Positions 3,885 through 14,867 of a stretch of 64,000 bases of DNA are shown here, one piece after another; position 1 is the first letter of the stretch; each line of letters opens with the position of its first letter. The notes beneath the pieces are model-generated. The model saw nothing but the letters and a program-made list of their open reading frames with translations, was not told where the DNA came from and searched no databases. The stretch comes from Oscillospiraceae bacterium (GTDB lineage: Bacteria > Bacillota > Clostridia > Oscillospirales > SIG627): positions 1-64,000 of the forward strand of contig SVQW01000002.1 of NCBI GenBank assembly GCA_015065085.1, read 5' to 3'. The position numbers were made by a program, and so were the translations under genes.

Positions 3885-4931
3885 CTATTTTAATCTATAA
3901 TAACAAGTAGACTTGCCCGAACCTTCACGCTTTAGCTCTCCTTCGCTTACCATTTTACGAAGTGCCCCTTCAACGGAGCTTATGCTGAGTGACGGACAGA
4001 GTTCTCTGATATCCTGTTTGGTAAAGCGCCCCACCTTATTCAGTGATGCCTTTCTTACCATTTCGATTGCAGGAAGTTTTTCTTCTACGATGGAAAATCT
4101 GTCTTCAAAGTCTTTATATGCAGCAAGGATAGTACCAAGGATATATTTTATAAACGGTGTTGCATCCTCTAAACCCTCATGCCATCTATCCTGAGATTTG
4201 TTAAGGGAATCGTGATATAAATCTTTGCTCTTTGCAATTTTAGCTTCAAGCGAGATATATTTACCAACATAAAATCCGCTTCTGTAAAGTAACAAGGTGG
4301 TAAGCAGTCTTGACATTCTTCCATTACCGTCGTTAAAAGGATGAATGCAGAGAAAATCGTGAATGAATGTCGGAATTGCAATCAATGGTTCAAGTTCAAG
4401 ATTGCCGATAACTTTATTATATTCCTCGCAGATTTTATCAAGCGCCTCTTCAGTTTCATAAGGTGCCAGCGGCGTAAACAGAACTTCTGAATGTCCGTGA
4501 GGATAAGTTGCGCTTATATAATTTTGCACACTCTTTGTTTTGCCAGCCATAGGGTTATTCATATGAGTGTACATAATCTTATGGAGCCCGAGTATATAGT
4601 TTTTTGAAACAGGAATTGCATCAAAATTCTCGTGGATGATATTAAGAGCATCTCTGTATCCCGCAATTTCTTGTTCATCACGGGTTCTGGGAGTCGTCTT
4701 TTCTGCTACAAGTTGTTTAATACGTGTATTTGTTGTAACGATACCTTCGATTGCATTGGAAGACTCTGTGCTTTGTATCTTTGCGATTTCCACAAGCTTT
4801 TCAAGCTCTTCCGGGCGCATCTTTAAATAGAAGTCCTGTTTTCCTGCTTCTTTATATATGCCAGCTACGAGACCGAGAAGTTCAGAATCCCATTTATGTT
4901 CTTTGATTATCGAATAATTAAACATTCTCAT
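3885..4931 (-). CDS. Fic-domain protein (class II, self-inhibited) with C-terminal winged helix
   Basis: 348 aa. Catalytic motif HPFNDGNGRMSR begins at His197 and matches HPFx(D/E)GNGRxxR, so the AMP-transfer active site is intact. An N-terminal helix carries the inhibitory motif S58-N-A-I-E62-G63, matching (S/T)xxxE(G/N) of class II Fic proteins, whose glutamate blocks ATP binding. The last ~70 residues (TKQDIRELCPSLSISSVEGA) look like a winged helix. Fic enzymes usually AMPylate hydroxyl side chains of target proteins; the target is unknown. It has its own strong promoter, so it is probably monocistronic. No separate antitoxin gene is present. Start chosen at the ATG 8 nt after AGGAGG; a second ATG lies two codons in. 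Confidence 0.93.
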   Translation of the reverse strand: MRMFNYSIIKEHKWDSELLGLVAGIYKEAGKQDFYLKMRPEELEKLVEIAKIQSTESSNAIEGIVTTNTRIKQLVAEKTTPRTRDEQEIAGYRDALNIIHENFDAIPVSKNYILGLHKIMYTHMNNPMAGKTKSVQNYISATYPHGHSEVLFTPLAPYETEEALDKICEEYNKVIGNLELEPLIAIPTFIHDFLCIHPFNDGNGRMSRLLTTLLLYRSGFYVGKYISLEAKIAKSKDLYHDSLNKSQDRWHEGLEDATPFIKYILGTILAAYKDFEDRFSIVEEKLPAIEMVRKASLNKVGRFTKQDIRELCPSLSISSVEGALRKMVSEGELKREGSGKSTCYYRLK

Positions 4932-14753: not shown

Positions 14754-14832
14754 AAAATTTCCTCCTAAAATACACTTTTAATTAAAATATACACTTTAAT
14801 TTTACCAAATTTATATAATAAATAGATAGCGT

Positions 14833-14867
14833 TGTCGTAATTTGTATGTTTTCTGTCGTAATTTGTA
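14833..14867 (-). promoter_or_regulatory. Paired direct repeats, candidate LytTR regulator binding site
   Basis: TGTCGTAATTTGTA occurs twice without mismatch, at 14833-14846 and 14854-14867, a 21-bp period (two helical turns). LytTR response regulators such as AgrA and ComE bind paired direct repeats with about 21-22 bp spacing upstream of weak promoters. A LytTR regulator is encoded at 16163-16873. Downstream towards the DUF3089 gene are candidate -10 boxes TATAAA (around 14810) and TAAAAT (14799-14804) without good -35 boxes, which fits activator dependence. Confidence 0.65.

Follow-up and report, generated by a model that had tools for sequence, protein, structure and literature searches.

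Why a perfect 14-bp direct repeat should stand between a two-component operon and the genes for a very large surface protein is the question raised by this locus, which lies within a window (the whole stretch of DNA that was analysed) of 64,000 nucleotides. On the plus strand, the repeat TGTCGTAATTTGTA occupies 14833-14846 and 14854-14867, with an offset of 21 bp and no mismatch. Read on the minus strand from 14867 to 14833, towards the putative target operon, it becomes TACAAATTACGACA-GAAAACA-TACAAATTACGACA, made up of a promoter-distal half-site (14854..14867, scoring 16.1 bits with the position matrix described below) and a promoter-proximal half-site (14833..14846, placed by its sequence and matrix score). 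The preliminary description of this DNA had given the repeats, their 21-bp period and their place exactly, and its account of the gene context, with the pair lying between a LytTR two-component operon and a DUF3089-SLH operon, was likewise accurate. In line with the proposal made there, the pair very probably binds the LytTR response regulator encoded next to it and serves as the upstream activating element of the promoter for the DUF3089-SLH operon.

The repeat pair and its neighbouring genes

All of the features concerned lie on the minus strand. A sodium:dicarboxylate symporter (18232-16961) is followed by the LytTR response regulator (RR, 16873-16163) and a GHKL sensor histidine kinase (HK, 16156-14921) with at least five hydrophobic segments. 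Next comes a terminator-like hairpin with a T-run (approximately 14903-14868, fold z -3.4), which was not listed by a consensus terminator scan and which would end the RR-HK transcript just upstream of the repeats. Beyond the repeats are the two predicted target genes. The first (14753-13686) encodes a putative lipoprotein with an LTGC lipobox, a DUF3089 domain match of 6e-46 and, in its translation, the GHSQG motif, so that it appears similar to the family XV esterases. The second (13680-5263) begins 5 bp after the first, an interval consistent with a single transcript for both, and encodes a surface protein of 2805 amino acids with a signal peptide, Calx-beta and Big_2 domains and three C-terminal SLH stretches. 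On the same strand, the SLH gene is followed directly by a gene for a Fic-domain protein (window 3885-4931).

The DUF3089 domain, the GHSQG nucleophile elbow and secretion are shared with Est10, one of the family XV esterases, the authors of which would restrict that family to close relatives (PMC4431682). The window protein differs from Est10 in being a predicted lipoprotein, probably co-transcribed with the SLH protein; as an esterase it is putative.

At up to three mismatches, the repeat pair occurs once in the genome, which comprises 2.45 Mb in 22 contigs at 95% completeness; it gave no match in 100 dinucleotide shuffles of the window and, across 295 genomes of the order, was found only as the window copy itself. 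A relaxed version of the pair showed no excess elsewhere in the window's genome (34 matches versus 103 for a reversed-pattern control). The spacers that accompany the two copies, TGTTTTC and AAAAAAC, agree at only one of seven positions, as against 14 of 14 within the repeats, a pattern that favours selection acting on the repeated words over duplication of a 21-bp unit in the recent past. With the reading ACMAATYACGNCA, the half-site is no more than loosely similar to the consensus of AgrA or of LytTR regulators in general, and a search of the open-access literature for the motif letters returned nothing relevant. Since the letters of the pair are not conserved at the near-exact level, the comparison was shifted to the architecture of the locus and to a relaxed motif.

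Recurrence of the architecture and promoter geometry

Homologues of the RR at E ≤ 1e-30 occur in 26 of 394 genomes of the order, the window's own included, and are 29-42% identical to it. The genus-mate and most other family members have no close homologue of either the RR or the DUF3089 protein, the locus being mostly absent altogether, and an orthologue of the whole locus was not found within the genus or family. When the fetched neighbourhoods of the RR homologues were examined for ungapped direct repeats in non-coding gaps, an offset of 21 came first in 13 of the 45 gaps that adjoin RR-HK operons and in 4 of the 51 other gaps of the same loci (Fisher p 0.007; binomial 2e-10 for the flanks against a uniform choice of 36 offsets). 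Direct repeats beside homologous RR-HK operons are mostly spaced by 21 bp and sometimes by 20 bp, while their letters vary by locus, being GTCGTCTTGTGGCAGAAT in L066, GCATTTCGTGCACRGA in L088 and TGCGCAAAWTTA in L080. In L073, the RR of which is 30-33% identical, GACCAATTACGTCA and GACCAATCACGAAA stand in the same orientation just after the HK. In L069, which belongs to the same family as the window, TGCAATCTGCGCC and TGCAATTTGTGCC were recognised by eye at a spacing of 20 bp, and TATAAT lies 28 bp beyond the A that follows the second repeat.

A relaxed motif was then built from L073 and the window and searched for without the use of gene context. Within the order (394 genomes), the other non-coding matches whose surroundings were read, L107 and L108, both adjoin an RR-HK operon, and the remaining matches appeared coding by their letters or were confirmed as coding (L109). 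Among 85,000 genomes, the non-coding, non-satellite matches L112, L117, L118 and L119 each immediately follow the HK gene of an RR-HK operon; in L122, 20.6 kb separate the site from an RR with 56% identity to that of L117. Within the class (391 genomes), L175 is beside an RR-HK operon, and no such operon occurs on the 10-kb contig of L173. Altogether, in the 85,000 genomes and some 800 clostridial genomes searched, seven of nine independent non-coding matches adjoin an RR-HK operon, nine being a small count. L111 was not counted as independent, being the same locus as the L073 used for motif design, and L115 was left out since its contig ends 14 bp past the site. Matches in coding sequence (L109, L110, L116, L121 and L174) or in tandem repeats (L113, L114 and L120) were discarded. 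Each of five named other genomes tested holds exactly one site.

The distance from the repeats to the -10 element, counted in a 13-mer half-site frame, is fixed. A TATAAT-like hexamer starts 28 bp after the second half-site in L107, L111, L112, L122 and L173 and 27 bp after it in L117, L118 and L119, with 28 bp also in L108 (TATACA) and 29 bp in L175. Averaged over ten sites, the hexamer at 27-28 bp agrees with TATAAT at 5.3 of its 6 positions, a value reached by none of 20,000 random placements. In the window, the predicted -10 is TAAAAT (14799..14804, minus strand), 28 bp from the proximal half-site and preceded by TGG, giving an extended -10, TGGTAAAAT, downstream of the repeat pair. Other hexamers matching the -10 at five of six positions are present in the gap and, as the gap is AT-rich, the choice among them rests on the conserved distance. 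A scan of the minus strand of the gap found no sigma-70-type promoter with both hexamers, so the earlier remark that the DUF3089-SLH operon lacks a good -35 was right. If the -10 hexamer is set at -12 to -7, the pair would span approximately -75 to -41.

A half-site position matrix was derived from the ten sites, with the window left out, and combined with a standard -10 matrix. In the window, the single strong site that it recovered was the repeat pair (39.8 bits, offset 21, distance 28), the best scores being 22.1 on the reversed sequence and 20.5 on the other strand; position 3 of the window half-site is A, where all training sites have C. Among loci outside the training set, the best scores of L065 (29.6), L079 (33.8) and L078 (24.2) all fall in the RR-HK flank, and the match in L065 lies before a giant gene. 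Direct repeats about 21 bp apart in a fixed place immediately before the core promoter are the features of a LytTR direct-repeat promoter and, judged by this architecture, the window site is a predicted member of that already known class. A difference in hairpin placement was also observed: in L111 and L119, the RR-HK terminator hairpin lies between the repeat site and the -10, doubling as a spacer, whereas in the window it lies just upstream of the repeats.

The relatives' genomes are drafts in which many giant genes, defined here as open frames of at least 1000 amino acids, are cut by contig ends. An SLH giant lies downstream of the site in the window, L069 and L173, and giants with Listeria-Bacteroides repeats in L117, where the site falls between the HK and a surface protein of 1,088 residues, and in L119. 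The downstream gene in L122/L177 encodes a 2084-aa BspA-LRR protein, while L065 has an MBG/GLUG giant and L066 a giant with InlB-like repeats. Other sites precede genes for AgrB (L108, L112), a CAAX protease-like protein (L118, L175), a GGDEF protein (L107) or a small protein ahead of a phage-type integrase (L073). L080 carries a 33%-identical homologue of the window SLH protein right after its RR-HK pair; there, the 21-bp pair is found in the opposite flank of the RR-HK operon and faces a second giant gene, and the gap that belongs to the SLH homologue seems to contain an ordinary promoter. DUF3089 was rejected as a conserved partner, its homologues in L003 and L004 (= L085 and L086) having no adjoining RR-HK operon. 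The large surface protein of the originally proposed target operon is thus the partner that recurs, and its DUF3089 lipoprotein is not. Likewise, the expectation that the repeats would be conserved in relatives held for the architecture, the related half-sites and the distance of 27-28 bp to the -10 in distant RR-HK operons, where the sites often precede a giant surface-protein gene; the genus-mate and other family members mostly lack the locus.

Three loci carry, after the repeat promoter and ahead of the giant gene, a gene for a small cysteine-rich protein of some 65-100 residues (L065 4740-4423, minus strand; L066 8984-9262, plus strand; L178 9889-9608, minus strand). The pattern is C..C..[AY]K/G[YF]...G.C.[YF], the two proteins scanned had no Pfam match and no such gene occupies the corresponding place in the window.

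Regulator, proposed circuit and rival readings

The window RR matches Response_reg at 1.6e-16 and LytTR at 3.1e-7 (31.0 bits against a cut-off of 22.6), which places it in the LytTR family, and it is the only LytTR protein detected in the 2.45-Mb genome. The FxRxHRS motif contacts DNA in AgrA, where it reads FFRCHNS, and in VirR, where it reads FxRxHrS (PMC4227749). The motif is typical of LytTR regulators without being universal, AgrA itself deviating from it. In the window RR, it is absent, with FYQCGKTYIIN in its place; the closest RR relatives have FYLCGKTFIIN and FYKCGSTYIIN at this position, and relatives with the same kind of sites also lack FxRxHRS. The label "AgrA/ComE-type" given to this regulator in the preliminary description is thus apt for its presumed mode of action and does not extend to close kinship. 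FxxCGxS, found in many RR relatives and corresponding to FYQCGKT in the window RR, is a candidate subfamily mark. The closest relative found in the analysis, the 54%-identical RR of L117, was reached only via the DNA pattern.

In the proposed mechanism, the GHKL kinase would sense a signal and phosphorylate the RR, on which phosphorylation the response would depend. Two RR molecules would then occupy the pair of half-sites, which are separated by two helical turns and face the same side of the DNA, and the bound RR would recruit RNA polymerase to a promoter with an extended -10 and no usable -35, acting as an activator rather than a repressor. The whole looks like a dedicated circuit of one regulator, one site and one operon per genome.

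Three other readings were weighed. The site could be a LytTR site at which the RR represses the operon, or one that serves chiefly for feedback control of the RR-HK genes; autoregulation is frequent among published LytTR systems (PMC6193735), and bsaA is a gene that AgrA is able to repress by way of a site downstream (PMC4227749). This was judged improbable, given that the site follows the 3' end of the HK gene, with the terminator-like hairpin between them, that no 21-bp pair is found upstream of the RR, and that the half-sites are oriented towards, and spaced 28 bp from, the -10 of the downstream operon, an arrangement shared with ten other loci; the absence of a -35 fits activation. Binding by a transcription factor other than the neighbouring RR seems less probable still: adjacency alone is no proof, but this motif with its spacing also accompanies LytTR RR-HK operons on unrelated contigs, and a single LytTR protein was detected in the genome.

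That the repeats arose by chance, or by a neutral tandem duplication without function, would accord with two perfect copies for which a search of the order (295 genomes, up to three mismatches allowed) gave no other counterpart. It is, however, the least credible of the readings, as the spacers differ at six of seven positions between identical repeats, the motif, offset and -10 distance recur independently, and a matrix score so far above the controls makes it very unlikely.

Known systems and a possible wider module

Published LytTR systems have repeats 12 bp apart just upstream of the -35, with variable letters and conserved spacing (PMC6193735). The window site shares with the HdrRM and BrsRM promoters of Streptococcus mutans two direct repeats approximately 21 bp apart immediately before the -35 region, letters that vary while spacing and position are conserved, and an extended -10 as reported there (PMC6193735). 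It differs from them in its regulator, a phosphorelay RR with a GHKL kinase instead of a regulator with a membrane inhibitor, and in its target, a surface-protein operon instead of the system's own operon or bacteriocins. The closest well-studied parallel is offered by the VirR promoters of Clostridium perfringens, with two direct repeats (imperfect in VirR) on the same helical face before the -35; the boxes cover 34 nt, and their function depends strictly on helical phasing (PMC2838878). VirR serves several unlinked genes, whereas the window's genome holds one site, with different letters and an RR lacking FxRxHrS, and thus no VirR-like regulon with several paired-box targets.

The new elements are the repeatedly found one-to-one link to giant surface proteins and the predictive geometry; no description of such wiring between an RR and a giant surface protein was found in the open-access literature. 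It is tentatively suggested, with rather less confidence than the reading of the window site itself, that these loci may represent an undescribed, widespread module of Clostridia, in which a GHKL-LytTR subfamily marked by FxxCGxS acts through a single 21-bp promoter on one giant SLH, Listeria-Bacteroides-repeat or BspA-LRR protein each. Were this so, regulator, site letters and surface protein would diversify together under a fixed promoter geometry. The window site itself offers a candidate switch for giant surface proteins in uncultured Clostridia of the gut. It also provides a searchable signature, ACMAATYACGNCA twice at 21 bp with 27-28 bp to the -10, by which regulator-target pairs are predicted from sequence alone.

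The AgrA sites at agr P2/P3 (PMC4227749) are also direct repeats upstream of a promoter, bound there by a LytTR RR, and they differ from the window site in consensus and DNA-contact motif. A Pfam scan of the larger window ORFs found no AgrB, so the agrB/agrD pair that marks an agr system was not recovered there and, on present evidence, the window system is not agr. Sites of the same class do precede agrB, beside a LytTR RR-GHKL HK operon, in L108 (5112-5145) and L112 (3830-3863), a link to agr-type peptide signalling. The occurrence of one site class before both agrB and giant surface proteins suggests that regulators of the peptide-signalling type have been re-wired to control single surface structures. 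The L112 record is assigned to Alistipes sp. (JAMPAJ010000002.1, Bacteroidota) and carries a LytTR RR with a GHKL HK, the repeat site, AgrB and an RHS protein; the contig looks clostridial, pointing to either mis-binning or transfer.
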